Positions 1 through 50,467 of a stretch of 64,000 nucleotides of DNA are shown in pieces. The DNA is from Zygnema cylindricum. Its lineage: Eukaryota > Streptophyta > Zygnematophyceae > Zygnematales > Zygnemataceae. A model generated the notes under the pieces. That model worked only from the letters and a program-made list of their open reading frames with translations, was not told where the DNA came from and did not search any database. The stretch covers positions 126,001 through 190,000 of the forward strand of contig JBBHKE010002684.1 in assembly GCA_037447655.1 (NCBI GenBank). Direction: 5' to 3'. Made by a program: the position numbers and the translations under genes. Positions within the stretch are counted from its first letter, which is position 1; every line of letters begins with the position of its first letter.

Positions 1-260
1 AAACATTTAAAAAAAAAACCCTAAACCATGTTTCTAACATGAATTTGAATTGGCGCTAACAAATATATTTGTAGCAAACATCTTTAATTGTTTGCGGTCA
101 CAAAAAGAGGTAAGAGAAACTGTGAACAATGTTTATAACACAATTTTGTGTTTGCGCTAACAACAATAGTGTAACAAACACTTTGTATTGTTAACCTACA
201 CAAAAATATTTAAAAAAAATCCCTAGACAATGTTTCTAACACAAATTTGTTGTCTTTTTT
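1..260. repeat. Degenerate tandem repeat, unit about 100 bp
   Basis: Two and a part copies of a roughly 100-bp unit are visible, each with an ATGTTTNTAACA motif (about 28, 129 and 229) followed by GCGCTAACAA and a run of short direct repeats of AAACA type. The copies differ by many substitutions and small indels, so the array is old. No coding potential is seen. It may be the tail of a satellite or of a transposon that continues to the left of the window. Confidence 0.6.
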
Positions 261-280
261 TTGGAAAGCTTTCATTCTCA

Positions 281-425
281 GAGCAGCACAACTGCTATAC
301 AAGCGGAGCAGGGCAGCTGCTATACAGATAGAGCAGCGCAGCTGCTATACAGACAGATCACCGCAGCTGCTATACAGCAAAGCAGCGCAGCAACAGAGCA
401 GCGAAGCTGCAACACAGGCAGGACA
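281..425. repeat. 25-bp tandem repeat (GAGCAGCGCAGCTGCTATACA type)
   Basis: Four consecutive 25-bp units start at 281, 306, 331 and 356. Each carries the core CAGCTGCTATACA, itself built around the palindrome CAGCTG. More degenerate units follow to about 425. The short ORFs that cross this stretch only translate the repeat and are not credible genes. Confidence 0.8.
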
Positions 426-430
426 ACGCA

Positions 431-723
431 ACCACGATTATATTTCATATGGTCTGTACGGACAATGCAGCGTCTGTTATTCTTAATGTGATTCTGTACA
501 GGATAGAGCAACTGCGATAGATACGATTCTAGTCAACTTAGTGGGTAACTTAGTGGTAGCTTAGTGATAGCTCAGTGGTAGCTTGACAGATTAGTGGTAG
601 CTTGGTGGTTTGATGTACCTCTCAAGTACACTGGTGTTGCCAGTTCAACACAAGTATAAGACTTAGGACTCAGAACATATTATGTATCCAGACTTCCAAG
701 TAGTAAAACTGCAAACAGTTTTT
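431..723. other. Non-coding stretch with short AGTGGTAGCTT repeats
   Basis: Between about 540 and 610 the motif AGTGGTAGCTT (with variants) recurs five times. It superficially recalls a tRNA A-box, but no tRNA can be folded here. Nothing else is recognised. Confidence 0.4.
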
Positions 724-1066
724 GGGAAACTTCTGAGTATTATATCTTGAGTGTTGTCGGGTCAATTGTGCAGAAACTTTGGGAGTTGTCAATGTTTACG
801 CTACTCTGTATTTTGAGTTAGTTTTGAGAGGTTTGGGTGCTTCTATAAGAATTGGTGAGCACTTGACAACAGCTGTTTGGTAGGATTCTTGATAGCATCT
901 AAGAGTGTATCATGTCTACTTCTACTAATACTGCTGCTCCTCCACCTGCACCGGTAGTTGTAGAAAAACAAACCTTAGTGGAATTCACTGAGATAGACCT
1001 TTCACTTGTCCACTTACGATACCCCAATATCGTTTTTCACTCAAAGCCCTACCATCATAGCTTCCC
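724..1066 (+). repeat. Dispersed repeat copy 1: leader plus start of an ORF (MSTSTNT...)
   Basis: This stretch aligns, in inverted orientation, with about 13090-13400. Shared landmarks are a TTTTGGGAAACTT block, a leader, and an ATG at 912 opening an ORF beginning MSTST and containing VVVEKQ. The inverted copy has MSTSTTT and VVVEQQ at the same places. After about 45 codons both copies lose clear coding character. It looks like the 5-prime end of an unrecognised repeated element, perhaps the leader and gag N-terminus of a retrotransposon family different from the copia elements nearby. The ORF runs on to 1145 only because it reads through the copia fragment that abuts at 1067. Confidence 0.45.
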
Positions 1067-1122
1067 AACAAATGAAACCAGGTCTGTTGAAGATGGGCAC
1101 CTTAGAGGGTGGGCCCATAACC
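1067..1122 (-). pseudogene. Fragment of copia gag start and primer-binding site (minus strand)
   Basis: Read on the minus strand from 1122 this is a primer-binding site (GGTTATGGGCCCACC) followed in frame by codons for MGPPSKVPIFNRPGFICWE, the conserved gag N-terminus of the copia families in this window. It stops abruptly at 1067, where the dispersed repeat begins. It belongs with the LTR at 1123-1894 and is a truncated element: the rest of gag and all of pol are gone. Confidence 0.75.
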
Positions 1123-1894
1123 TGCAATTTTGTGTCCCCCATTAGAATACAGAATTGAGGAAGCCTTTAGATAGTATTTGGCTAACCCTTTTTCAGCTAG
1201 GATGAGAGATACCAAGTAGGCAAACAAGCAATGTGACTACACCCATCTGGAGTCTGGACTCCCCTAAGTCCTCAGCAAAAGAAATCATTGAAAATGCCCA
1301 ACTAGGCGATTAATTATCAAGTGGCAAAGATGCCAAAATATATACAAGGTTTGTGGGAGAGAGGCGGCTACCTCCTAAATCTCTTAAGTCCCAAACCCCT
1401 CTCACAACCCCTTTCTTCTGATGTACGAACGAATCAGAGAACTAGAAAGTATAGAAGGTACTGTGGCCGGTGTACTTCCTTTTTTGGTCTATGTATGACT
1501 TGGCCATTGAGTGGAAACCTGTCTCCCCGAACTCCGCCTCCTGCTTTCCAGGATTCTTGTTACCCAATGTTATCTTGCCACGTGGCTCTAGGTCATGTCA
1601 CGCCCAAAACCGCCAAGTGACCAATTCGAGATCACAACAATGATGCGTGTCGTCGGATTGAAATCGGCTTTGAATGCTTGCCGTTGAAAATCAATGTCTG
1701 GTAAATTTGTTTTGTGCGGTTTCACTTTTGCACTATATTTCATTTTGTTTCTTTATTACTTAATCGTAAGCCCGTTAATCAGATTAGTGAATTCTGACAT
1801 ATTTAAATACTAATCATACCCCACGTACTCTAACGAACTTCAACTAACCTGCCTAAGGAACCAAGGCAGCCTTGGCTCCACCACCCTCTCTTTT
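1123..1894 (-). repeat. Truncated LTR of a minus-strand copia element
   Basis: The edge next to the primer-binding site is TGCAATTTTG (complement of an LTR ending in ...TTGCA), close to the corresponding end of the LTR of element J at 37514. The LTR is cut at 1894, where element A begins, so its TG end is missing. It shows the usual features of this group: GTAC motifs near 1425-1495, a CCACGTGGC palindrome near 1579, and the remains of the leader hairpins near 1240-1270. The expected continuation does not reappear to the right of element A, so sequence was lost as well as interrupted. Confidence 0.7.
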
Positions 1895-2780
1895 TGAAAT
1901 TTTCTGGTCTCCATTGACCCATATAATGAGCAGTCTATGTTAAGCCTCTAGCATAATATTTGCCCCTTCCACTTTCTCACTGAATAAGCGCCGCCCAGGC
2001 ACAAAATTATTCTGACCACCCTCACCCCTATGAGGACCAGACTCTTCTGAGGCAAACGCAAAAAGAATCACTGAATTTGCTCCCTTGGGCAGTAAGTTAT
2101 GGCTGGTCAAAGATGACCTTTATAGTTACAAGCTCTCTTAGAGAGAGGTCCCTAAATATCACTAAGTCTTGGTCTGCCTACTCACGACTACCTACTACTA
2201 AACCCTAGTCGAATAGGAACACTATATAGTACAAGAAGGTACAATGGGGGATGTACTTATTGTACGACCATTGTACGACAAGGTCTACAAGGTGACACCT
2301 GTCAAATCGGGGCCATGGTTCCCCCTCCCATCTTCTCCGGTATCAAATAAAGTAGCGCCACGTGGCACCGCTTGACGCTATCTCCGTATGCCGCCAAAAG
2401 CTCACTTCACGTGGCGGCTATAATGTCGGCCGTCTGATTAAAACATATTTTACACGGTTCAGATTCGCGTACATGTATGAATTGTTTCTCTTCGTTAGTT
2501 TGGTGTTAATTAGCTGTCGCGTTAATGTTTATATATTTTTGAAACTCGTCAGGCGTATTGTTTCGATAAGACTTTAGTGGATAAGACGTATGTCTACATA
2601 GATGTCCCAGACCCAGGTTCAAATCTGGACCTAGGCACCATTTTGGAAAAATATCCTCTACTTCTAAATCTGCCACTTTCTAAATATCGCGGCAGCCATG
2701 GCGTGCCTTTGATCCTCACTCTCTCTCTTTAAAGAGGAAATAAATTAGAGAAGTGAACTATTAATTACCTCTTTTCAACA
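1895..2780 (-). repeat. 3-prime LTR of element A
   Basis: On the minus strand this LTR starts TGTTGAAAAG at 2780 and ends at 1895. It abuts the purine-rich tract at 2781-2793. It contains a GTAC-rich cluster (about 2229-2276), a sequence reading AGGTTCAAATCT at 2615-2626 (antisense to the LTR, tRNA B-box-like), and the conserved GCCATGGC palindrome near 2697. Confidence 0.85.
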
Positions 2781-2793
2781 CTCTCGTTAATTC
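2781..2793 (-). other. Polypurine tract of element A
   Basis: On the minus strand this reads as a purine-rich run ending GAGAG directly against the TG of the 3-prime LTR. This is the position of the plus-strand primer in LTR retrotransposons. The equivalent tract in element G is AAAATAAGGGGAG. Confidence 0.7.
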
Positions 2794-4277
2794 CTAGTCA
2801 CTTTTTAATTTTAATCCACAGTTTTCTTTGCAAAAAATCAACTTAGGGGAAGGCACTGGTTTTGTCATCATGTCTGCAATCATTTCTCTATCAGTTTTAT
2901 AGACCAGTTTAATTATTTTATTTTCTACCTTCTCTCTGAGAAATCTTAGTCTAATATCCATATGTTTAGCTTTAAAGTGATGTTTCGGATTAGCTGCAAT
3001 ACAGATAGCAGGTTGATTATCACAAAAAACATTTTGAGTTCCAGACTTCATGAACCCAATTTCTTCAAGGAGAGATTCAACCCACATTAATTCTTTGGTT
3101 GCAGCACAGGAAGCCATGTATTTAGCCTCTATAGTGGACTGAGCAACTACTTTTTGTTGCTTGCTACTCCAACAACATGCATCGGATCCAATTTGCACAA
3201 CACATATCCAGTCGTACACCGCCTTAAAGGCACATGTCCATATCTGGCATCACTCTACTTGGTGATGTCAGTGTGCTCCCCTCCCAAATGCAACCACAAT
3301 TCCCTTGTCCCCACCAGATACCTCATCACACTTTTGGCTGCCTCCTAGTCTCTCTTTTTTGGTTCATTTAGATTTCTACTAAGCACACCTACAACTGCGG
3401 CTATATCTGGACGGGTACACTTCATAAAATAGATTAAACTGCCTACAATCTGCTGATAAGGGGTATTTTCCATAAATTTTCTTTCTATCTCATCCATCTT
3501 ATCATTAAAAGTCAATATTCCTCTCTCTTCACTCCCCTCAAACACTTTCTTCAAATCCATGGGAGTAGTACATCCATTTGCTTTTTCCATCTGAATTTTT
3601 TCTAGCATATTACCGATTGCTTCTTTTTGTGTGAGTCTTATAATCCTATTCCCTCTATCTCTCTCCATTTGAATTCCCAAAATGTACTTCGCTTCACCGA
3701 GATCTTTTATATTAAAACGGCTTCTAAGATCTCGTTTTAGTTCGTTAATCTTATATAAGGACTTGTTTAAGACCAACAAATCATCCACATAAATAGCAAT
3801 AAATATCACTCCATTCTCATCCTCAAATAAATATATGGAGTGATCTTAACTAATTGTAATATACCCCAAACCGGTCAGAAATTCGTCCAGTTTTATATTC
3901 CATTGTCGCGCGGCTTGCTTAAGCCCATAGATTGATTTTATCAATTTGCAAACCTTGCTTTCTTCCCCATTTTCCACGAATCCTTCCGGTTGCCTCATGT
4001 AAATTTCTTCTTCCAACTCTCCGTCCAAAAATGCCATTTTAATATCCATTTGGTGTATTTCCATAACCTTTGCTGCGGCTAAACTTAAAAGGATTCTAAC
4101 AGAAGGAAATCTGACTACAGGTGCAAAGGTTTCTTCGTAGTCTATCCCCTCTTTCTGAGTATACCCCTTTGCAACTAACCTAGCATTATACCTTTCAATG
4201 GTATTATCAGGGTTTAATTTAAGTTTAAAAACCCACTTACATCCGATCGGTTTTCGGTCCGGTGGACAATCTACCAA
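2794..4277 (-). pseudogene. Reverse transcriptase and RNase H of element A (broken)
   Basis: The reverse transcriptase starts near 4300 with the conserved GCKWVFKLKLNPDNTIERYNARLVAKGYTQ region, keeps YVDD (about 3780-3790), and continues into RNase H, where SKQQKVVAQSTIEAKYM and the FCDNQPA block are recognisable. A stop splits the RT near 3849 and further breaks occur near 3344 and 3220-3340, so no single ORF spans the domain. In the full element these would copy the RNA genome into DNA and remove the RNA strand. Confidence 0.85.
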
Positions 4278-4278
4278 C

Positions 4279-5658
4279 TCATGTATTGGCTTCCATGATG
4301 GAGGTCATTTCTTCTTTTATAGCAGTGATCCACCGGCTAATTTTTGGGGTGTTTATGGCCTCTAAGGAGGTCTGAGGTTGATCTGGGTGAGACATCTTTG
4401 TGAGTTGGTTATTTACTTGTCTTTCTTGAAGTTGTTTACTGCTTTTTTTTCCCCCTTCAAAATCAGACGCCGGTATGGAAGGCATCCTTGTGTTTCGCTT
4501 AGGAAGATTTTTAGCTTCCCTATCTTCCAATTGCGGTGTCTCATGAAGTTCCTCATTGGTTTCCATTTGTATTGTGGCGTTGCCTTGGATGTTGTCCTTT
4601 CCTCCTTCTCCTTTGGTAGATCTGCAATTTTTTTTTTTCTCCATCTTCTTTCTTTTCGAAGTCAAAGTCAGAAAACTGATCCGTTTCAAATGTGATTTTG
4701 ACTTTCTTATTATATTTGAATGGATCAATGGACTTCTTTTCATTCATCACCACTATGTGTTTTACCAAAATTATATCTCTTTTTATCAAGTCATACACCC
4801 AGTATCTTTTTGTGCTCTCATCATACCCTACAAGATATCCTAGTTTCCCTCTTCCCTCTAACTTCCATTTAGTCTTATCGGAATCCAAACTGTAGACTTG
4901 ACTTCGGAACACTCTTAAACTAGACAAATCAGGCTTTCTTCCTGTCCACCTTTCATACGGAGTTTCCTCCTTATTTGTTGATGTAAGGACTCTAATTTTG
5001 ATGAAATTAGCATAGTTCATAGACTTAACACAAAATTGCAACCCTATCTTCTTATCAGTTAACATACTTGTGGACATATCTCCTAAAGTTCTATTCACCC
5101 TTTCAGCTACTCCTTTTTGTTCCGGATTATCGGGGACAGTTTTCTCATGATGAATTCTTTCTTCTTTAAGATATTCTTCAAATTCCCTTGAGGTGTATTC
5201 TTTCCCATTATCACTTCTTATCTCTTTTATTGAGGTTTCATGTAGTTTTTCACTCCATACTTTAAACTCTTTGAAACATCTAAATACCTTTGACTTATGT
5301 CTGAAAAAGTATACCTTCGTGTATCTAGACCAATCATCGGTGATGGTTAACATCCATTTCTTCCCCCAATGTGAAACATACCTACTAGGTCCCCAAACAT
5401 CTGTGTGAATTAGATCTAATACTTTCTCTCTCTTAAATATGGTTGCTTTTGGAAAGGAAGTCTATGAATCTTCCCTTGGGCACATCCACTACAATCATCG
5501 AAAGTCTCATCATCGTCAAAAGTAATACCCTCCACTATTCCCTTATTCTTCATTTTCCTTAATCTATCTAGGTGCACATGCCCCAACCTTTTTTGCCAAA
5601 GCATCATTGCACACGAGTAGAGAACACTCTTTTCATTGCAAAGAACAATTTTGAACAT
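4279..5658 (-). pseudogene. Integrase of element A (broken)
   Basis: The zinc-binding GAG-pre-integrase region (KRLGHVHLDRLR ... CSGCAQGK) lies at about 5470-5600. The core domain carries RSDNGKEYTS near 5200 and the VAERVNRTL segment near 5090, with the spacing of a D,D35E integrase. A frameshift near 5400 separates the two parts. The C-terminal extension is lysine and glutamate rich and ends near 4743-4300, before the reverse transcriptase. Confidence 0.8.
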
Positions 5659-5769
5659 TCCTTGACTGCCCTTCTCAGCTACGAAATAAACCTCATTAGG
5701 AAAGCTTGTTGTGAAGATTCCTTTCCTAGTTCCTGTTTCAAACTCCTTTTCATCTAGGACAACTATTGA

Positions 5770-6100
5770 GACTAGGTTTTTGTTAAGCTATGGAATGTAA
5801 AGAACGTCTAAGAGTGTTGCAATTGAGGCCTTTCCATCAACTAAAACATTCAACTCAACAGTTCCAACAAGACTTGTGGATTCTACTCTACCATCTCCGT
5901 ACTCTATTTGAACTGTTGGAGTCTTTATCAATTTAGTGAACAACCTCTTATCTTTGCACATATGCATTGAGGCCCCTAAGTCTATGATCCACCCATCCTC
6001 GGGTGGATCCCTCTTACCTCCAAAAGCACACTTTTGTTTTTATGGAATGTCTACATGCTTTTCAGTGGTATTTGGATTAAAAATAAGCTCCTCAAGCTCC
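5770..6100 (-). pseudogene. Protease region of element A (broken)
   Basis: The minus strand encodes the segment following the knuckle: WIIDLGASMHMCKDKRLFTK, then a VEIEYGDGR-like block. The aspartic-protease active site, normally DSGAS in this group (as in element G), reads DLGAS here. Stops near 5790 and 6040 break the frame. Confidence 0.7.
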
Positions 6101-6146
6101 ACTTCCAGTTCGGTTTCTTCGTCCTCTTCCTCATCATGAACTTGAG

Positions 6147-7190
6147 TCAGGAAAGCCCTTTTCTTTCTTCCATCCTTTGAGGTTCCTTGTCCATCTTCAG
6201 TCGAAGATCAGCAAGTTTGATACAATCTACCATATAATGTCCTGGTTTCTTGCAGAAGTGACATAATCCTCCTCGAGAAGTTCCTCTCCCCTGTCTATCA
6301 AATTTGCCACCTTTTTGTCCTCTTCCACCAAAGTTTTGATAAGGATCTTTCCCTCTCTCCTCATCACACTTCCGCCAATCACCTCCTGCAGACAATGCTT
6401 GAACACTTGGACTCCCTCTGCTAAGCTCTATAGTGCTTTTTTTCACTGAAATCATTCCCACTGTGTCATCCCAATTCTAATTGCTATCTCCTATGTCTTG
6501 CTATCAGTTAATGATATTCTCATACTCTTCAGGTAGTTTCATCATTAATGTATTCACTCTTTGTCTCTCAGACCATGAGTTACCTGCACTCTCTAGCTCT
6601 TCTAACAATGCTCCTAAATCATTGCAATAATTATTCATGCTTCCTCCCTTATAAGTATAAGCTGCGATTTTATTTTCTACCAACTGTTGCTGCTACAATA
6701 ATCCACTCTTATATTTGTAAACTAGTGATATCGAAATCTGAGATGAAGATTTCACATGCATAAGGGGAATGGCAATGCCCTTTGCTACACCTTTAAGAAT
6801 TAAAAGCTTATCAACCTTGTCTTTCTAGTTACACTTTTCATACTCTGATTTGTTGGTCTGAACCCTTGTTAACTTTGCTGGTGGTGCTGCTGCCGGTATC
6901 CCCTTCGACAATGGTGTCACTTTAGTTGCAACTCCTCCCTTTTCTCCTTCCATGAGAATCTCCTCTCCTTTTCCATGTTCATCCTCGGTGAGGGTGGCAG
7001 CTGTTGTGGCTACTGTATTGACAGAGGTGCGAGAAAAACGTGTCCCTCCAAACCGAGGTGGAGGTGGGCATCGAATTTGTCCAGACACTATGCCCCGTAG
7101 ATGCTTCTCAAATAGTTCTCCCTCCATCATCATTTCCTAATACAAAAAGTTTGATCCATCAAATATGGGCACCCTAGATGGTGGGCACAT
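6147..7190 (-). pseudogene. gag of element A (broken)
   Basis: Reading starts at the ATG inside the primer-binding site (7190) and gives MCPPSRVPIFDGSNFLY, then an in-frame stop, then the gag N-terminal block MMMEGELFEKHLRGIVSGQ (from 7133). The nucleocapsid zinc knuckle CHFCKKPGHYMVDC (CX2CX4HX4C) lies at about 6230-6275. Several frame breaks lie between, at about 6480-6830. Confidence 0.8.
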
Positions 7191-24105: not shown

Positions 24106-25020
24106 ATGGCTGCCTCTTGCCTACCCTCCTCCTCCTCCTTCTTCTCCTCTTCCTCTACTCGTCCCCGTCTCCCATTTGCTGCCGCAGCTTTGGCTCCCCT
24201 CTTCGCCGCCCTTCTCCTTCAAACAGCCGGAGTCGACTTCCACGTGGCATGCTCTGCTTCTCTCGCCGCCCTCCTCGCCTTCACGGGATTCATGCTCTGG
24301 CTCCATGTCCTCCGTTCCGCCTGGTCCACACTATTTCCTGTCCGGCTTCCCCTCCCTCCAGCTTCCGCCATAGCTCTCGGTCGTCTTCCCGAGGAGAAAT
24401 TCGCCATGGCTGAAACCCTAAAATCCCTGGCAAACCTAAAATACGACGGACCTCTGGACATCATTGTGGCTGTCGCCATGGATCCTCTCAGTTCCGCCGG
24501 ACTTGAATCCGAGGAGGAAATCGTAGCCATGGCCGCAAAGATTCCCTTCCACGTGTCAGTTTGCCGCGTGTCGGAGAGTTCAAGCGAAGAAGAATCTCTC
24601 CTATCGGCTTTGGAGGTCGCTACAGGACAAACTGTGGCGGTGTTCCATGCCGGTCACTGTCCGAAGCAGGAAGCCATGGCCGTGGCCGCCCAGTGGGGTG
24701 GGGAGAAGGACCACGTGTCACTCCAAGCGCGAATGGATAGCCGAGGTCGCACGTGGGACGTTCAAGAAATCGGTGTCAAGTCGACAGCTGGCAGTGAGGC
24801 CTTATCGACCAGGTTTTTCCGGTCGCTGTGCCAGCTGGCGAGTGGGGGAGAAGGATGGTACGGCGCCCTTTGGCGTTTGGTGCCATGGGCTGTCGTACAG
24901 ATGGTGCCATTGGCCGTACTTTTGCTAATGGGACAAATGCAGTCGTCGGTCTTGTCGGAGTTTTCGCTATCTTCCACGTCGAGGATCGCCACGTCGCTCG
25001 TTCTTTCTTCCTCGTATTGA
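24106..25020 (+). CDS. Intronless 304-aa membrane protein, weakly GT2-like
   Basis: The ATG sits in a good plant context (CAACCATGGCT) below two telo-boxes. The protein has a Ser-rich N-terminus, two hydrophobic segments (about residues 23-42 and 48-70), a soluble middle part, and a third hydrophobic segment near residues 258-278. The middle reads DIIVAVAMDP ... ALEVATGQTVAVFHAGHCPKQEA ... VSLQARM. This follows the order of a family 2 glycosyltransferase core (VAIFDADF.P...VQARW in CSLA/CSLC-like enzymes), but HAGH replaces the metal-binding DxD and no later QxxRW is present. It may be a diverged, non-catalytic or truncated relative, or unrelated. GC content and codon use fit a real gene better than the flanks. 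No stop or frameshift is seen. Function unknown. Confidence 0.7.
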   Translation: MAASCLPSSSSFFSSSSTRPRLPFAAAALAPLFAALLLQTAGVDFHVACSASLAALLAFTGFMLWLHVLRSAWSTLFPVRLPLPPASAIALGRLPEEKFAMAETLKSLANLKYDGPLDIIVAVAMDPLSSAGLESEEEIVAMAAKIPFHVSVCRVSESSSEEESLLSALEVATGQTVAVFHAGHCPKQEAMAVAAQWGGEKDHVSLQARMDSRGRTWDVQEIGVKSTAGSEALSTRFFRSLCQLASGGEGWYGALWRLVPWAVVQMVPLAVLLLMGQMQSSVLSEFSLSSTSRIATSLVLSSSY

Positions 25021-28211: not shown

Positions 28212-31200
28212 TCAGCCGTCCAGAAGCATACCCTGATCCAATCCACCAAGCAAAGCCCGTTCACTAATGTGAAAACTGCAAAAATCTACTCCACAGTATT
28301 CCACAAAACCACTCACAGACCGGCTGGTTCCAATCCCATATAATTCCGAAGTGATGTGGTCGAAAACAAATTCCTCCATTTCCTCCCTATTTCCTCCACA
28401 TGCTTTGCAAACCTCACCGTCGCCATTCTTTCTGGAGCACAGGAGTCTCTTTACCTGCTGCTGAGAAGCCGATTTTGCTGCCCTTGATTGGTCGTCCAGA
28501 CTTGCTCGTGTGAGTCTGTGACTTCTCGACCAAAGATGAAACACCACTGTCTCTGTCGGACAAAAGAAGTCCCAACCATGTGTGTACATTCGAACCGCCA
28601 TCGCCATCTCTTCCCCAAAAAAAAGATGCTCAAGGTTGGGAGAGTAAGGCACCTGAGAAAAGCACAGAAACAAAAAAGAATAATATTTCGAGTTCCTGAG
28701 CATGAAATTTACCGGTTTTACGCAATAGGAAACTCTCGCCAAACCTTATCAAGCTAGTAATCATCTGTCCAGACGAGCAGATTAGTCGCCTCATTATTTC
28801 TCTACTCAATAACTACCTTAAATTTAAGAAGCGGGCCTCTTTGTGATGTAGGAAGCATCTTGTCAAATCTCACCTCCTGCAGAAGAGAAGCTTTTGAAAA
28901 CGAATACCCTGCCGCCCAAAAGAGTGATGGTAGAGGTCCAACGAGCGGCTCCTTCAACAGTTTCCCTCGAATTCGAAGGAGCCCCTCAGCACCAAACCCA
29001 GAAGCACATAAGATTACCGGATGGGTATCAACTGAAAACTCAGCCATCTGCCCGAGGCCGGTATATCCTGGAGGGTATGTAGAGATAACAGGCTTTTTGG
29101 AAACTTTTTCAGCTGCCCGAAGCATGGCTATGAGTCGTGAATCCCAATTTTGAGCAAATCTCATATGGGAATCGACCTAGCCATCCGACAGAGAAGCCCC
29201 ACAGACAAGTCACTAAGACATATGTTAAAAAGCCAAACCATAACAATACATGGACACCAAGGAGAAAACAAAAGCAGACAACAGCTTCATAACCCCCTAA
29301 ATCAATAGTAGGCCCTGTCACTAATAAACAGGAATCTGTACTACAGCACAGCCATGGAAAGCCCCACGAAATTTGAACATGATAAGAAAACACGTAAATT
29401 ACGTGCATCTCCCCCCCAGAGGCAAAAAATAGTCACGAAAAGGATCATATGCAATATGCATCCTGAAGCATGCAATAGCAGGAGTGCAAAATGTTCCTTC
29501 CTCTATACCTGTAGAAAATAGTTTTCCCCTTGCCATAGCTTCTGTGCTAGATGACGTGCCAGACATGGCCCTTTAGCTTCTCTCCAATCCATCACCATCT
29601 GTCTCACTTGCCGCTTTTTGTCATCTCCCAAGAAGTCCAAATTCATCATATGAGCATCTTCTTCTGGATCTACTTGCCACACCACGCCAACCTTCACTCT
29701 TTGTGGCGATTCTGCCATTTCCAACATATGACGAATGGTCCATCGGCATTCACTGTCACGATAACATGCGACTGACACAAAAATTTCCTCACTCGCCTCT
29801 TTGTGTTCCGTCCCCGAGCCCTTCTCAGAAGAGATCGTAGTTTCCATATTTCCCTCATGCTGACAGTCATTTTTTGTGAATATCCCATCTTCCTGAGCAC
29901 ATTGATTGTTGGTGGGGACATACACACTTTCAAACACAGATGCTTCTGGGCTATTGCTCTTCGGCTCACAAGAACCTTTTGCTTTTGAATGGCCACATTT
30001 CATTTTGCCATTTTCACATACCATTCTCATCTCAGGAGCAGAAAACCAAGCAGTGATTGCAAATCGCTGGCCATAAGAGGGAAGCACTTCATGAAACATG
30101 TCACTACAAAAGATGACTAAGCGATCTCCTATTGGGAAAAGGTCAAGCCACTCCTCTCCAGAACATTCCTTTTCACCTTCAACCGGCCCTCTTGAAACCC
30201 CGCTCCCTCCCCTGACGTCGTCTACGTCACCATTCCCCTCCCTTAACCCCTCACGGAAAGCAGTATTTTCAGGTGGTTCATCATTCCCTCGTTTTGTGTG
30301 CCTTTGTTCACCAACACCTATTTTATCTCCAGCACCAACTATGTAGCTAGTCTCCACAGACTTGCTTTTACTAGCCTTCGTGTATAGCCTCAATTGCCCA
30401 CCCCATGCTTCTTCCCAACAGGGATTGGCGTAGTAGATTGCCGTTACTGAACGGAGAGGACATGATGGAGAGCGATCTGTGTGACGGATATAACGTGCCC
30501 CCTTTGCCTGCAATCATTGGACCAGTTGGCGAGCTTGGGAACTTGCTAGTCTTCGTATTTGAGGTTCCTTCCAAATAATGCCTACATCCAGATGGTTATA
30601 GACAACAAAGGACTTCAAAAGGCTATACATAGAGATCGCCAAACATATAAAACACGAACATTCGACCCACGCTGTGTCTTCCAGCAACATGAAGCAAGAT
30701 GCTTACAAACAGGATAAAAGAAGAGGAGCAGAAAGGAATGCAGTGCTATCAAATACATAACGAAGAGCCTTGATTTCAAACTCAATTCTCTTACAGTTTA
30801 CCCTGACAAATGTGCGAAATCACAATCATGTGATTGTGGAGTAAATCGAAATACCTGAAACGAAGGGAAACTTTTGCAATTTTGGTGAGCAAGAATCAAT
30901 CAGAAGTTCATGCAAAAAGGCTCGCAGAAGTACAAGTCAATGAAGGCCCATGAAGCATTCTCATTCAAACATTCAATGGAAATTGTTGTGAACACAAAGA
31001 CCTCTGCATGTCCAATCGTCTTCCAAATAACTGAGTTTCATTAAGGGTAACTTTATTCCAAACGGGAAAAATAACCTTACCGGATAGCATGCAAGTTGAA
31101 ATGTAACTTTTCCACCCACATTGAATCCCTGTTCCGCCAAAAGGAGTTCAAGACTTTTGAAAGTGCGTATCACATGAGCCAGAGCAGGTCTCCCATTGGA

Positions 31201-32048
31201 TGCCTCCACGTCCAAATTCAGCCAAGCCATGCGATCCCCACGGAATCTCCCATCATTCCACAGATTTCCTCCAAGAGATCCTCCCATTCCAGCCTCTCGC
31301 AAACTTGGAAAGCTTTCTGCCTCCGTCCGAACAGCAGAGAGCTGCAGAGAATGGCCGTGAGGCTCAGATTTTAATCGGGAATAAGTCAAAATTAAGACGC
31401 CCTCCAAGATTGGGACTATGATAAAAAGTGCCATAACATTTCAGACATATACTAGACAAAACCAACCGAAGCGGCAATTTCTTACCAAAAAGGTTTGACT
31501 GCTATGCTGACAAAAGTACGGACAATCGAGCTCTTTGCAAACCAAATTTTCGCAGGCCAGGCGAAAGTCTCAATAACTTAACCACAGACAGGAGTACTTC
31601 CTCCAGTCATACCTCACAACTTCTGGAGTGAGTTTCCACATAGATAGACTGTTCAAGAACATGATTTTCAAGAGACGCATATTTCCAATTGATTTTAATT
31701 GAGTCTCACCACATTCTCTCCCAAGAAATTGTCGACAACTGCGAAACCCTTTTTAGCGAGCCCTTCTACAGCCAAAAACAACGGCGATTCTTGCGAAGCT
31801 TTGCCTGCTTTGCCTCTGAAACCAGTGGATGCTTCTTCCAATACTCTCAGAGGGCTATGGTTGTGTCCTCGAGTTTGCCCTGTCTCAGGTTGAAAGGATT
31901 CGTGAGTTTCCGATAAATTTTGAGCCAATGCCTGATTCTCTACTGGAGCCGCTTCCTGAGAGCGAATAGTAAGGAAAGATAGTATCCGAAGCTGTACTGA
32001 ATCTGGTAAGTCTGCGACTCGACGCTGACCATCCTCTTTCGCAGCCAT
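28212..32048 (-). CDS. Fused prolyl 4-hydroxylase (EGLN/PhyA type) and GT60 GlcNAc-transferase (Gnt1 type), 780 aa
   Basis: Exons by splice logic: 32048-31710, 31341-31081, 30507-29509, 29176-28874, 28652-28212. All four introns are GT-AG and phase 0. Residues 11-27 resemble the start of an F-box (VADLPDSVQLRILSFLT). Residues about 95-355 form a 2-oxoglutarate/Fe(II) prolyl hydroxylase: FRGDRMAWLN (146-155), Tyr199, iron ligands His209, Asp211 and His339, and 2OG-binding Arg348. The Tyr-His spacing (10) and His-Arg spacing (9) equal those of human EGLN1, with an extra loop of about 69 residues between the iron ligands. Residues about 441-775 form a GT60 domain: VACYRDSECRWTI, DSHMRF (535-540), STYPPGY, LFFGEE (644-649) and FHLW (672-675). 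In Dictyostelium and Toxoplasma the separate enzymes hydroxylate a Skp1 proline and add GlcNAc to it. The SKP1 substrate is inferred from family. No disabling change is seen. Confidence 0.85.
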
Positions 32049-44031: not shown

Positions 44032-44689
44032 TGTAGAAACTAATGTTTTTATTAGTATTTTCTAGGTCTAAATAGAAATATAGAAAGAAGCCGAGGCAGT
44101 CTACCTCTAACTTCTCTCTCCAAATCTCAAACTTGTCGCAGTCACTGAGAAATTGGAGAGGAAGCTAGAGCCATGGCTACCTTGGCTATCCTGAGGTTTA
44201 CGGGAATTTTATACTAGGGTTTATTTATTTATTTAAAAGGAATGTGCCGGCGGCAGGATTTGATCCTTGTACCTACCGGCCGGCAGACAGGAAATAGCCG
44301 GTAGCCTTAGCCGTTAGATCTAGCAGTAGTATTACGTGATATATAGTTTGATAAATATATAAATTAGAATACGTACGATAATTCATTTAACTGTTACGAT
44401 TTACGGGATGCATAGATCCGGTACGAATGACAGTACGGATAACGAATCAATACCGCGCATTTGTTTCGGAAGTGAAATAAATACCGCGCATGTATTTATT
44501 ACGGCCACGATTAAATCTGAATTTAATCGGACGGCCGGGATTAGCGCCGAGATCACGGAGGAAGATTTCGGCGGTTTGTGGCCATCGCCACATCGGATGA
44601 CGCGTGGCGAAATTCCGTTGGATCGTAGAATCTCCGGAGATCATGGCACCGAATCCGGATTTGACATGTGTCGACATTTTGGCCATGTC

Positions 44690-44863
44690 GTACAATGTCC
44701 GTACATAAAGTACACCGGCGGCTGTACTTTTACGTACGGAACTCAATTCTGATTGGTTCCGTACATCAGTAGATAGAGTCTGTGAGAGAGATAGGACTTA
44801 GAAAAATTAGAAGATAGGACCCCCTCTCCCAGAGAGCTTCTGTACAAAAGGTCAACTTTGACC
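44690..44863 (+). promoter_or_regulatory. Putative U3 regulatory block: GTAC cluster and inverted W-box pair
   Basis: GTAC occurs at 44690, 44701, 44710, 44724, 44734 and 44761. GTAC is the core bound by plant SBP/SPL factors and the core of copper-response elements. The inverted pair GGTCAA-CT-TTGACC at 44850-44863 contains two W-box cores (TTGACC), the binding site of WRKY factors. Both blocks recur in the other LTRs of the window in the same order. A role is inferred, not shown. Confidence 0.45.
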
Positions 44864-44877
44864 CCCCATAACTTACT

Positions 44878-44980
44878 GCTCAGGGGAGCAAATTCAAAGA
44901 TTCTTTTTGCTATCGACTCAGGGGAGTCTTGTCTTCACAGGGGTGAAGTTGGTCAGCGTTTTTGTCTGCCAGGGTGGCAG
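44878..44980 (+). promoter_or_regulatory. Leader RNA hairpin series upstream of the primer-binding site
   Basis: Four small perfect hairpins follow one another: GCTC-AGGG-GAGC (44878-44889), GACTC-AGGG-GAGTC (44915-44928), CTTCAC-AGGG-GTGAAG (44933-44948) and CTGCC-AGGGT-GGCAG (44966-44980). The linker GATTCTTTTTGC between the first two is conserved in other LTRs. The same series recurs in the 3-prime LTR at 50272-50374. In the genomic RNA it would lie close upstream of the primer site, a usual place for packaging or dimerisation signals. Confidence 0.7.
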
Positions 44981-45073
44981 TTATTTTTGCTTAAACACAA
45001 AGGGGTCAGGATTATCCTAGAGGCTTCTTGGAAGCTGTCCACTCTGAGGACTTATGGAGGTCTCAGAGTTACA

Positions 45074-45088
45074 GGTTATGGGCCCACC
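45074..45088 (+). other. Primer-binding site of element G, overlapping the gag start codon
   Basis: GGTTATGGGCCCACC abuts the LTR and is the exact complement of the anticodon stem-loop of plant initiator tRNA-Met as I know it. The ATG at 45078-45080 pairs with the CAU anticodon and is in frame with gag. Priming from an internal half-tRNA is known for Drosophila copia and yeast Ty5. Confidence 0.85.
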
Positions 45089-48000
45089 CTCTAGGGTACC
45101 AATCTTTAATGGAACTGGCTTCATATACTGGGAAAGTATGATGATATGAGCTCTATGCGAAAAAAGGTTTTGGGGGATAGTGAGTGGACGATTGGGACGT
45201 CCATCAAGTCTTGGAATTCCTCCAGGGTTTGGAGGAAGCAGATTCACCAGGAAAGAGGATTCACCTTCAACGGAGGAAACAAAGGAAGGAGAGGTGGTGG
45301 ACAAAGGAAAGGAGAAGGAGGCGACCACACCAATAGCAACTGGTTTAGCATTCATGTCACCTATTCCGAGGAACGAGGAGAATGATACTGAAACCTGGGA
45401 CTTCAACAATATGGCGGCAAAGCACTTCATCCTACGCCATCTCACTCAAGGACTTGCATGTCCTCATTTGCAGGTAGAAAGGGCATCCGATCTTTGGATG
45501 GCTCTTATAGAGATGTACCGAAGTGGTACGATTCAGCAACAACAGTTGGCTGATCAGAAAGTTAAGGAGTATGTATACAAAGGGGGAAATATGTTGGATT
45601 TTTGCAATGAGCTTGCTACACTCTTCATGGAGCTACAGAGTGCGGGAAAAGATTTGAGTGAAAAAGAAAAGGTTAACTGTTTACTGATGAAGTTACCTGA
45701 TGAGTTCGTGAACATAGTTTACCGTGTGCAGGACTTGCCTGACTCAAGGTGGATATGGAACTCAGTGGTAGGAATGATTCTCGTTCAAGAGAATACAATT
45801 GAGATCCGAAGGGGAGGAAAGAGTGGCCAAGCCTTGGCAACAGCGACTGATTGGAGGAACAGGGATTCCCGAAAACCGGTCGGAAACTATGGGGGTAGGG
45901 AGCAGAAAAAACCGGCCGATGAGTTCGAACCAAGGGCTCCCAAAGGACTATGTCATTTTTGTAAGAAACCGGGGCACTATATGGCAGAGTGCACTAAGCT
46001 AACCGAGCTTCGATTAAAGGAGGGGCAGACCGGTGGTACCTCGAGAGGAAAGAAAAAGGCCCTTGTCACACAGGTACTTGAGGCTGAATCCGAGGACGAG
46101 GACGATGAGCTCCTTTTGGATGAGGAGTTGGAGGCGAAAAATGAGGTCGAAATTCCACGGAGGCAGAAATGTGCTTACGGTGGATTGAAAGGTGAAGCAG
46201 GCTTGATTGTAGATTCAGGTGCCTCCATGCACATGTGTAAGGATAGACACCTGTTCACTAAGATAAGAAAGATTCCCACCGTAGAGATAGAGTACGGGGA
46301 TGGGAGGATAGTCACCACTACTCTTGTAGGATCGGTAGATCTAAAAGTGTTAGTAGAAGGAAAGACATCCATATTAACATTCTCCGATGTATTGTTTATT
46401 CCGGAGCTGAACAAAAATCTTATCTCTACATCAGTATTAGATGATAAGGGTTTTTTTACTAGCACTAGGGAAGGAGTCTTTACTGCTAGTTTTGAGGATG
46501 ATGTCTATTTCATTGCTGAGAAAGGTAGCCATGGGATGTTTAGGCTGATCTTAAGTAATGAAAAGAAGAAACTTTATTATGCTGGTGTTCATGATATTAT
46601 GATGTGGCATAAGAGGCTTGGGCATGTGAATCTAGATAAGTTAAGAGAGATGAAAAAGATGGGAGTGGTGGAAGGGATTCAGTTCAGTGAGAGTGATGAT
46701 ATAAGTGATTGTAGTGGATGTGCTCAAGGTAAAGCACACAGATTACCCTTTCCTAAGTCAGCCACCTATAAGGGAGAAAAAATTCTAGATCTAGTACACA
46801 CAGATATTTGGGGACCGGCTAAAGTGCCCTCACCGGGGGGGAAGAGATTTATGATGACTATAACTGATGATTGGTCTCGGTATTCCCGGGTATATTTTTT
46901 GAAAAACAAGTCCGAAGCTGAGGATTGTTTTAGACAATATAAAGCATGGAGCGAAAAACTCCATGAAACTCCAATCAAGAGAGTAAGGAGTGACAATGGT
47001 GGAGAGTATACTTCTAACCAGTTTGAGGATTTTCTGAGGGAAGATGGGGTTCAACACCAAAAGACAGTTCCAGAAAATCCTGAACAGAATGGGGTAGCCG
47101 AGAGGTTAAATAGAACACTAAGTGATAGTGCTAGAAGTATGTTGTCAGATAAAAGGATAGGGAAAAGGTTTTGGGCAGAAGCAATGAACTGTGCTAATTA
47201 CCTCAAGAATAGAGTTCTTACTTCAGCTATAAAAGATCAAACACCTTATGAGAGATGGACAGGCCGGAAACCAGACATATCTCACTTAAAGGTTTTCGGC
47301 AGTCAAGTGTTCAGTCTAGATACTGATCGGTCAAATTGGAAGCTAGATCCTAAAGGAAAACCAAGATACTTATTAGGATATGATGAAGATGTTAAAGGAT
47401 ATAGAGTTTATGATCTAAAAAGGGAAGATATAATCTTAGTAAAGCATCTAGTAGTTATGGATGAAGGAAAGTCTGTAGATCCCTTCAAATATACGAAGTC
47501 AGTAAAAATAAGATTTGAGTCAGAAAATTCCGATGACTTTGAGCTTCCTAACTATCCAGGTTTTAGAGAAGATGACATTCTTGCAGGTACAAATCAGACC
47601 GAAAAGGACCCGGCTGTGGAAACTCCAGTGACAACTCTACTCGAAGCGGAAGACGTGGTGGAAATTGATTCGGAATCAAGGGATAGGGGAGAAGTCGAGT
47701 TTGTTCGAAAGAATCCACGAGAACCATCTATTCCGGCCTCAGATTTTGAAGGGGGGAGGAGAAGTAGCAAAAGACTGCAAGAAAAACAGGTTAATAACAA
47801 GGTAACTAAACTATCTCATCAAGATGAACCTCAAACTTATGGAGAGGCGATGACTTGTCCAGAAAGAAACCGGTGGAAGACAGCCATCAATGAGGAGATG
47901 GCTTCAATCATGGCAGCCGATACTTGGGAGCTGGTGGACTGTCCACCTAACCAAAAACCAATCGGTTGTAAGTGGGTTTTCAAACTAAAACTGAACCCAG

Positions 48001-49412
48001 ATAACACAATCGAGCGCTACAAGGCCAGATTAGTGGCAAAGGGATTTACACAAAAGGAAGGAATTGACTACGAGGAAACCTTTGCTCCGGTGGTCAGATT
48101 TCCCTCCGTCCGCATACTTCTCAGTTTAGCGGCGGCGGAAGACATGGAAGTGCACCAGATGGACATAAAAACAGCCTTTTTGCATGGAGAATTGGAAGAG
48201 GAGATCTTCATGCGACAACCCGAAGGGTTTGTGGAAGAAGGAGAGGAGAGTAAGGTATGCCGGCTGATTAAATCTCTTTATGGTTTGAAACAGGCACCTC
48301 GACAATGGAATAAGAAGCTTGATGAGTTTCTTACCGGTCTGGGATATATTCGGATCAGCTCAGATCACTCAATCTATGTTTTCGAAGATGAGGAAGGTTT
48401 GATATTTATTGCAATTTATGTTGATGATTTGCTTGTATTAAGTAAATCAATGGAAAAAATTAACAAACTGAAAACCGATCTTAAGGGGAGATTTGAAATG
48501 AAGGATATGGGAGAAGCAAGATATATTTTGGGAATTCAAGTAGAGAGAGACCGAAAAAGGAAAATTATAAGATTGACTCAAAAAGAAGCAATAGGGAACA
48601 TGCTTGAAAAATTTCAAATGGATAAAGCTAATAGTTGTACAACTCCAATGGAGTTGAAGAAGGGAAGTGAGGGGAGTGAGGAAGAAGGAGTCATAGTCTT
48701 AGACGAGGAATTATCTCATGATGAACAGAAGTTCATGCAGACTATTCCTTACAGGCAAGTAGTGGGAAGTCTAATCTATTTTATGAATTGTACCCGGCCG
48801 GATTTAGCTGCAGCTGTAGGAGTGCTGAGTAGAAGTCTAAATGCTCCCACTAAGAAGGATTAGGAGGCAGCTAAGAGAGTCCTTAGATACTTGGTAGGAA
48901 CTAGAGATCTATGGTTGCATTTGGGTGGGGAGAATACTGACATCACTACTTGGAGTGATGCCAGTTATGGTGATGCTCCGATGAGGAGATGTACTTCTGG
49001 ATATGTATTATATGTGGGTGATGGGGCTTGCTGTTGGAGTAGCAAACAGCAAAAGGTTATTGCTCAGTCCACCATGGAGGCTGAGTATATGGCCTCTTGC
49101 TCTGCTGTAAAAGAATTGATGTGGGTCAAGTCTTTGCTTGGTGAGCTTGGTCACCTTAAGAGTGGTGTGCAGAAAATATTTTGTGATAATCAGGCAGCAA
49201 TCGCTATCTCTGCCAATCCTAAACACCATTTTAAAGCCAAACACATGGACATCAGACTCAGTTTTGTTAGAGAGAAAGTAGAAAACAAAATAATCAGTTT
49301 AGAGTACAGACCAGATAGTGAGATGGTAGCAGATATGATGACCAAACCTGTGCCTTCCCCTAAGCTAATTTTTTGCAGGGAGAAGTGTGGTCTGAAATTA
49401 AAGATTGACTAG
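45078..49412 (+). pseudogene. gag-pol polyprotein of element G (two in-frame stops)
   Basis: The conserved gag start MGPPSRVPIFNG is followed by a TGA at 45147. From 45180 the frame is open for 1227 codons to a TAG at 48861 (TGG in relatives), then open again to 49412. Domains: UBN2-type gag (about 45415-45760); CCHC knuckle CHFCKKPGHYMAEC (45951-45992); protease with DSGAS (46212-46226); GAG-pre-integrase (46604-46750); integrase with catalytic Asp 46803, Asp 46992 and Glu 47100, exactly D,D35E; RT (about 47926-48665) with YVDD at 48417-48428; RNase H (about 48900-49330). The TAG separates RT from RNase H. All catalytic residues I can check are present. Relatives at 54-58 kb read GGG where the TGA stands. 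Confidence 0.95.
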
Positions 49413-49425
49413 AAAATAAGGGGAG
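49413..49425 (+). other. Polypurine tract of element G
   Basis: AAAATAAGGGGAG lies between the last stop codon and the TG of the 3-prime LTR, the plus-strand priming site for DNA synthesis. Confidence 0.9.
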
Positions 49426-50467
49426 TGTAGAAACTAATGGTTTTATTAGTATTTTCTAGGTCTAAATAGAAATATAGAAAGAAGCCGAGGCAGTCTACCT
49501 CTAACTTCTCTCTCCAAATCTCAAACTTGTCGCAGTCACTGAGAAATTGGAGAGGAAGCTAGAGCCATGGCTACCTTGGCTATCCTGAGGTTTACGGGAA
49601 ATTTATACTAGGGTTTATTTATTTATTTAAAAGGAATGTGCCGGCGGCAGGATTTGATCCTTGTACCTACCGGCCGGCAGACAGGAAATAGCCGGTAGCC
49701 TTAGCCGTTAGATCTAGCAGTAGTATTACGTGATATATAGTTTGATAAATATATAAATTAGAATACGTACGATAATTCATTTAACTGTTACGATTTACGG
49801 GATACATAGATCCGGTACGAATGACAGTACGGATTACGAATCAATACCGCGCATTTGTTTCGGAAGTGAAATAAATACCGCGCATGTATTTATTACGGCC
49901 ACGATTAAATCTGAATTTAATCGGACGGCCGGGATTAGCGCCGAGATCACGGAGGAAGATTTCGGCGGTTTGTGGCCATCGCCACATCGGATGACGCGTG
50001 GCGAAATTCCGTTGGATCGTAGAATCTCCGGAGATCATGGCACCGAATCCGGATTTGACATGTGTCGACATTTTGGCCATGTCGTACAATGTCCGTACAT
50101 AAAGTACACCGGCGGCTGTACTTTTACGTACGGAACTCAATTCTGATTGGTTCCGTACATCAGTAGATAGAGTCTGTGAGAGAGATAGGACTTAGAAAAA
50201 TTAGAAGATAGGACCCCCTCTCCCAGAGAGCTTCTGTACAAAAGGTCAACTTTGACCCCCCATAACTTACTGCTCAGGGGAGCAAATTCAAAGATTCTTT
50301 TTGCTATCGACTCAGGGGAGTCTTGTCTTCACAGGGGTGAAGTTGGTCAGCGTTTTTGTCTGCCAGGGTGGCAGTTATTTTTGCTTAAACACAAAGGGGT
50401 CAGGATTATCCTAGAGGCTTCTTGGAAGCTGTCCACTCTGAGGACTTATGGAGGTCTCAGAGTTACA
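49426..50467 (+). repeat. 3-prime LTR of element G
   Basis: This is identical in length (1042 bp) to the 5-prime LTR, with four substitutions, all in the first 410 bases. It is followed by the target duplication CCCAA (50468-50472) and then by element F. Confidence 0.95.

Follow-up and report, generated by a model that had tools for sequence, protein, structure and literature searches.

A plant gene that joins a PHD-type prolyl hydroxylase to a GT60 glycosyltransferase: a candidate bifunctional SKP1-modifying enzyme

Introduction

Can a green-lineage genome encode, in a single polypeptide, both a prolyl hydroxylase and a glycosyltransferase for SKP1, the adaptor of the Skp1/cullin/F-box (SCF) ubiquitin ligases? 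The question is raised by a minus-strand gene in a 64,000-nucleotide stretch of Zygnema cylindricum DNA (contig JBBHKE010002684.1, positions 126,001 to 190,000; the whole stretch is called the window here). An earlier note, made from the letters alone, had read this gene as a fusion of an oxygen-dependent prolyl hydroxylase with a GT60 N-acetylglucosamine (GlcNAc) transferase. We find both domains in one open frame, each with its catalytic residues, and, with a probability of roughly two in three, we read the locus as an intact nuclear plant gene whose product is a soluble, bifunctional PhyA-Gnt1-type enzyme that modifies SKP1.

SCF ligases serve plant hormone signaling, and if the reading is true, a known animal/protist-type oxygen sensor would be brought into plants at the adaptor of these ligases. 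In the literature, oxygen sensing in plants is framed around cysteine oxidases (PMC5653532), and the hydroxylation and glycosylation of Skp1 are described as confined to protists, with the conclusions adding "pathogenic fungi" (PMC12101541), or are assigned to "Group 1 and 2 protists" (PMC8724618). The main text of a glycosyltransferase survey of Selaginella and Physcomitrella does not contain the term GT60 (PMC3342304), and in the open-licence literature we found no report of the Skp1 pathway in a land plant, which is not proof of its absence from print.

Results

The gene has five phase-0 exons, each with a length that is a multiple of three, and four GT..AG introns of 221-573 bp, and its spliced product has 780 residues (Table 1). 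This exon structure, with all of its junctions, reproduces exactly the one given in the earlier note, and the residues and motifs named there are present: Tyr199, His209, Asp211, His339, Arg348, DSHMRF at 535, STYPPGY at 565, LFFGEE at 644 and FHLW at 672. The start codon is the first ATG after a close upstream in-frame stop, and the 780-codon frame runs without a stop or frameshift; the remaining five frames of the spliced coding sequence contain 21-43 stops each. Exon 3, open over 333 codons, holds the hydroxylase metal ligands and runs 91 residues into the GT60 part, and because this exon alone joins both domains without an intron, the fusion is independent of splicing. The observed fusion is far beyond chance. 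The highest mean hydropathy of any 19-residue segment in the product is 0.98, and this hydropathy scan gave no sign of a membrane anchor. The GC content at third codon positions (GC3) is 0.42 in the coding sequence, compared to 0.45 in SKP1.

Table 1. Exons, domains and catalytic residues of the fusion gene, in window coordinates
Feature	Position	Strand	Remarks
Exon 1	31710..32048	-	Residues 1-113; start codon, F-box-like stretch, low-complexity region, start of hydroxylase domain; donor GTGAGA
Exon 2	31081..31341	-	Residues 114-200, Tyr199 included
Exon 3	29509..30507	-	Residues 201-533; Fe(II)/2-oxoglutarate (2OG) ligands, linker and GT60 N-terminus in one open frame
Exon 4	28874..29176	-	Residues 534-634
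Exon 5	28212..28652	-	Residues 635-780; coding 28215-28652, stop codon 28212-28214
Introns	31342-31709, 30508-31080, 29177-29508, 28653-28873	-	GT..AG
Weak F-box-like stretch	31962..32015	-	Residues 12-29, ADLPDSVQLRILSFLTIR; PF12937 E=0.066, below threshold
PHD/PhyA-type prolyl 4-hydroxylase domain	30025..31775	-	Residues ~92-361; PF13640; PDB 6ey1, 6t8m, EGLN1/2; interrupted by introns 1 and 2
HxD metal motif	30475..30483	-	His209-Thr-Asp211; aligns with HxD of PhyA 6t8m and PHDs; ligand roles according to PMC7864055
Insertion of ~70 residues	30160..30372	-	Residues ~246-316, about the betaIV-betaV loop; gap between two aligned stretches
Distal metal ligand	30091..30093	-	His339; PDB alignment; DdPhyA His266
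2OG salt-bridge arginine	30064-30066	-	Arg348; PDB alignment; DdPhyA Arg276
Low-complexity linker	29788..30012	-	Residues ~366-440; no Pfam match
GT60 domain	28248..29781	-	Residues ~443-769; PF11397; alignment to viral/bacterial GT60; interrupted by introns 3 and 4
DXH motif	29165..29173	-	Asp535-Ser-His537; D and H invariant in 24/24 GT60 sequences
GEE motif	28608..28616	-	Residues 647-649; Glu649 in 24/24, Gly647 and Glu648 in 23/24
His673 (FHLW)	28536..28538	-	Invariant in 24/24 GT60 sequences

The N-terminal half is, as judged from its sequence, a PHD/PhyA-type prolyl 4-hydroxylase (P4H) with the full Fe(II) triad and the 2OG arginine. When the 780-residue product was compared with Pfam, 2OG-FeII_Oxy_3 (PF13640) matched in two stretches at E=6.1e-14 (53.2 bits against a cut-off of 27, and 55.6 bits for the hydroxylase half alone), which bears out the family named in the earlier note, and all of the Fe(II)/2OG ligands are present. 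A sequence search of the PDB matched 38 sequences, headed by the HIF prolyl hydroxylase 6ey1 (4.1e-21) and including PhyA 6t8m (1.2e-19), EGLN2 and EGLN1; all but one are PHD, PhyA or bacterial PHD sequences (37 of 38), the sole other P4H being 6iuq (2.5e-5). The Chlamydomonas enzyme CrP4H (3gze) was not among the 38, which argues that the domain is of the PHD/PhyA type and not a cell-wall, endoplasmic reticulum-type P4H; 3gze, as CrP4H, and 4iw3 are both named in the paper on Dictyostelium PhyA (DdPhyA; PMC7864055). In the PDB alignments, His209, Asp211, His339 and Arg348 fall on His191, Asp193, His266 and Arg276 of DdPhyA, which are ligands according to the same paper. The insertion of about 70 residues is of low complexity and is not found in DdPhyA in the alignment; our residue numbering places it at about the betaIV-betaV loop, a part of DdPhyA that is disordered (PMC7864055).

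The C-terminal half is a predicted full-length GT60 domain with DXH, GEE and the conserved histidine. Pfam family GlcNAc (PF11397) matched at E=9.9e-76 (255.9 bits against a cut-off of 21, and 260.1 bits for this half alone), which puts it inside GT60, as had been proposed. When aligned with 24 chosen viral and bacterial GT60 members, the window protein keeps 33 of the 36 near-invariant columns (those conserved in at least 95% of the rows), including the D and H of DXH, the GEE and His673, and deviates at Leu516, Gly573 and Met650. By analogy with GT27, we take the DXH motif to be the metal/UDP site and His673 to be the third metal ligand. The fold was approached through a relative of the window protein, the viral-contig GT60 sequence L074, whose predicted structure (pLDDT 90.8) matched GalNAc-transferases with E values of 4e-12 to 2e-9 and TM-scores to the query of 0.54-0.65 among the 50 listed of the 408 PDB rows with E<=0.001. 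A six-frame search of the same 352.8-Mb assembly (2689 contigs), in which only the best candidates were scored, gave seven GT60 candidates and four matches, all inside the window gene, and did not find a further GT60 gene.

An F-box domain at the N-terminus was considered and rejected. With the N-terminal 90 residues alone, PF12937 scored 13.4 bits (cut-off 24.3), over 18 residues and profile positions 2-19 of 47; it was not listed when the whole 780-residue protein was scanned with Pfam, and the only PDB match to the first 60 residues was 9e2g (E=0.033), which is not an F-box protein. Neither this stretch nor the hydroxylase insertion is named in the earlier note. The match at residues 12-29 may be due to chance.

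Three SKP1-family places came out of the genome search, and two of them (L017 and L018) are SKP1 genes that keep the target proline, Pro144. The L017 gene has one 792-bp intron, and its spliced protein of 159 residues is closest to SKP1-like protein 1A, which we take to be Arabidopsis ASK1 (229 bits, compared to about 175 at best for animal SKP1). The two genes lie on separate contigs, one of 27.7 kb, and over 2882 bp, intron included, they are 93.7% identical; by this sequence comparison they may be a duplicate or a divergent haplotype. The third place, L019, holds a divergent SKP1-like exon on the minus strand, around 1440-1680 (SAADSLDMKPLVDLTSRALARMIEGKTPEEIRETFHLPDDLTE), presumably resembling the plant SKP1-like protein 21 type. 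The target proline is not conserved in mammals (PMC5653532), and human SKP1 is turned into a PhyA substrate by the exchange E147P and is then accepted by PhyA enzymes (PMC7864055).

The contig that carries the window appears to belong to a plant genome. In the assembly the chlorophyll-binding family is matched 88 times, with single exons included in the count. One locus (L155) encodes Lhcb3, with 421.8 and 420.8 bits to 5xnl_3 and 7oui_2, which we take to be Lhcb3 chains, and at most 378 to other single-domain chains (these comparisons leave aside the 9vfj rows, long multi-domain chains whose scores are sums). An exon at L156 encodes Lhcb6/CP24, with 315.7 bits to CP24 and 115 to the next single-domain chain. 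For the LHCII gene at L154, the top single-domain chains are 8htu_U and 7xqp_a of Physcomitrium patens (460 bits), followed by chains that we assume to be from seed plants (up to 434 bits) and green algae (up to about 402). Lhcb3 and Lhcb6 are reported to occur only in land plants (PMC2323573), and the origin of Lhcb3 is worded more loosely, as in "terrestrial green organisms," in PMC8230411. On these markers the genome reads as that of a land plant, moss-like in the LHCII gene only. The window contig (366 kb, of which 106-366 kb was examined) has a GC content of 0.410, compared to 0.393-0.460 for loci with plant genes. Two of the 13 loci from the SKP1 and Lhc searches, those of the SKP1 gene L018 and of Lhcb3, share with this contig repeats of 59-290 bp that are 82-92% identical, and the other 11 share none at that threshold.

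Discussion

The earlier note proposed a single bifunctional SKP1-modifying enzyme, and this proposal is supported in part: there is a single gene, it encodes both catalytic domains complete and of the families claimed, the genome is of the green lineage, and its own SKP1 has the target proline. The architecture is not an undescribed one, since van der Wel, Gas-Pascual and West (2019) have reported a dual-function prolyl 4-hydroxylase/GlcNAc-transferase in the oomycete Pythium ultimum, and fused pairs in the Skp1 pathway are called frequent (PMC8724618). The Pythium enzyme, likened here by its title and the sentences that cite it, is similar in having both activities in one polypeptide that acts on Skp1 isoforms, and differs in coming from an oomycete and not from a plant. 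What is new is the lineage and not the fusion itself: this is a known kind of enzyme in an unexpected lineage.

Dictyostelium and Toxoplasma have a PHD-type hydroxylase and a GT60 transferase for the hydroxyproline of Skp1, PhyA and Gnt1, but as two separate proteins, and DdPhyA is without the long loop insertion of the window protein. The animal PHD/EGLN oxygen sensors share the PHD family match and the HxD..H and Arg ligands, but their substrate is HIF and they carry no glycosyltransferase. The GT60/GT27 polypeptide N-acetylhexosamine transferases share PF11397, DXH and GEE, and the modeled relative suggests a likeness to GalNAc-transferase structures; unlike them, the window protein has no match to a membrane anchor or a ricin-like domain and is fused to a hydroxylase.

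We infer the substrate, activity, oxygen sensing and physiological role of the fusion protein by analogy. Judging by its family, the PHD-type domain would use O2, 2-oxoglutarate and Fe(II) to form 4-hydroxyproline at the proline of NDFTPEEE near the C-terminus of SKP1. The GT60 domain, probably a metal-dependent retaining GT-A enzyme like the polypeptide GalNAc-transferases with the metal held by the DXH site, would then move alpha-GlcNAc from a UDP-sugar to the SKP1 hydroxyproline. With the two domains tethered, the product of the first step would be handed to the second within one chain, and because of this handover, GlcNAc-SKP1 would report the supply of O2, 2OG and UDP-GlcNAc; it would also bias which F-box proteins bind SKP1. 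In Dictyostelium and Toxoplasma, SKP1 so modified binds a larger share of some F-box proteins, and its homodimers are weakened (PMC11570480, PMC12101541). A wider proposal is that the plant modifies SKP1 in a manner coupled to O2 and UDP-GlcNAc, whether this is ancestral or acquired, and thereby senses oxygen in parallel with the N-degron pathway, and that the F-box-like helix may dock the enzyme on SKP1; this is tentative, and on balance we lean slightly against it.

Several points weigh against an SKP1-modifying plant enzyme. The gene is known here from the genomic sequence of a single eukaryotic genome, and the GC3 of the Copia frames in the window is 0.40, close to that of the gene, so that codon composition is weak evidence. 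GT60 enzymes also modify mucin-type proteins at Ser/Thr (PMC8724618), and of the two PHDs in Toxoplasma, one is tied to translation elongation (PMC11192375, PMC6437050). On the side of the substrate, the third SKP1-like gene, L019, has Glu at the target site and reads DDLTE, and the target proline is general in plant SKP1s, being present in five plant-named PDB chains as well as in L017 and L018. As the proline is common among plant SKP1s, it permits modification but does not prove it.

Among the alternatives, the likeliest is a true bifunctional enzyme whose substrate is not SKP1 but a different protein of the cytosol or nucleus that offers a suitable proline. PHD-type enzymes have targets as diverse as HIF, EF-Tu and Skp1 (PMC7864055), the GT60 sequence carries no information on the substrate, and the hydroxylase has its loop insertion relative to PhyA. 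The one enzyme with the same pair that we came across in the literature, that of Pythium, nevertheless acts on Skp1, and the target proline of SKP1 is kept in this genome, and we regard another substrate as unlikely, if well worth keeping in mind. A protist origin, in which the contig or gene comes from an organism such as an oomycete by contamination or recent horizontal transfer, would agree with the fusions known from an oomycete and with a report of GT60 without plant entries (PMC3797821). Contamination was judged unlikely on the grounds of the contig GC content, which lies within the range of the plant-gene loci, the codon composition, which is as in the plant SKP1, and the repeats shared with sequence next to the Lhcb3 gene and to a plant SKP1, and the four introns likewise speak against contamination; these points may leave room for transfer followed by amelioration, but as a whole this origin seems to us quite improbable. 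Still less credit is given to a decaying relic with an intact frame and an inactive enzyme. The gene is known from genomic sequence, its neighborhood is rich in retrotransposons, and three near-invariant GT60 columns deviate, but a frame of this length without a stop or frameshift, clean splice sites, and the retention of the catalytic ligands and of nearly all conserved GT60 columns make such a state very improbable. That two adjacent genes or transcripts were mis-joined is scarcely credible: the methionines at residues 360, 362 and 369, just past the hydroxylase domain, could start a separate GT60 protein, but the open exon 3 runs from the hydroxylase ligands into the GT60 part. A plant enzyme of the PhyA-Gnt1 kind acting on SKP1 remains the reading that we prefer.

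GT60 relatives and other features of the window

GT60 is very common on IMG/VR viral contigs, where at least 588 of 600 candidate stretches were confirmed in a scan with a six-sequence alignment; the same kind of scan confirmed 22 of 136 bacterial candidates. With one sequence as the query, 12 of 12 viral candidates were confirmed, with the same contigs found in a repeat scan, and 0 of 12 candidates from genome contigs. The viral and bacterial relatives are 29-40% identical in the best segments listed. The 80 viral loci kept (L074-L153) have frames of mostly 410-445 residues, and the four that were scanned with Pfam (L074, L075, L077 and L081) contain GT60 only. When 114 GT60 loci of viral and bacterial origin were searched by tblastn with the hydroxylase, the single match was a weak one (E=0.39), to L052 from an alphaproteobacterial metagenome-assembled genome. 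GT60 and 2OG oxygenase domains thus meet in bacteria too: L052 resembles the window protein in having GT60 and PF13640 domains in one chain, and differs in that this chain (1-6183) has at least 2061 residues, with six GT60 matches, two 2OG-FeII_Oxy_3 stretches and other glycosyltransferase domains, its hydroxylase match being weak. L053 and L054, from Burkholderiales, have frames about 1700 residues long in which GT60 stretches occur together with methyltransferase and HtrL_YibB domains.

Elsewhere in the plant assembly, LHCII genes form arrays on both strands of contigs C519, C2590 and C1116, with at least nine on C519.

The neighborhood holds no functional hint for the fusion gene. A Pfam scan of 111 of the 114 window open reading frames (ORFs) of at least 62 residues gave two matches only, both to reverse transcriptase; NCBIfam gave only a sub-threshold 2OG match, and neither an Rfam scan nor a tRNA scan turned up anything in the window. 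In the contig flank (106-366 kb), 122 of the 346 ORFs of at least 100 residues resemble the Copia frames of the window, and several of the 70 viewed by eye among the remaining 224 look like other retroelements. The Copia-type element itself, at 44032-50467, has an open gag-pol frame of 1237 residues (45150-48860), after which a further frame runs to 49409, and the insertion is probably young, because its flanking repeats are 99.6% identical over 1042 bp. On the plus strand, at 24106-25017, a 304-residue open frame with hydrophobic segments (identified by eye) and no match in Pfam or NCBIfam is possibly a real exon of a membrane protein.

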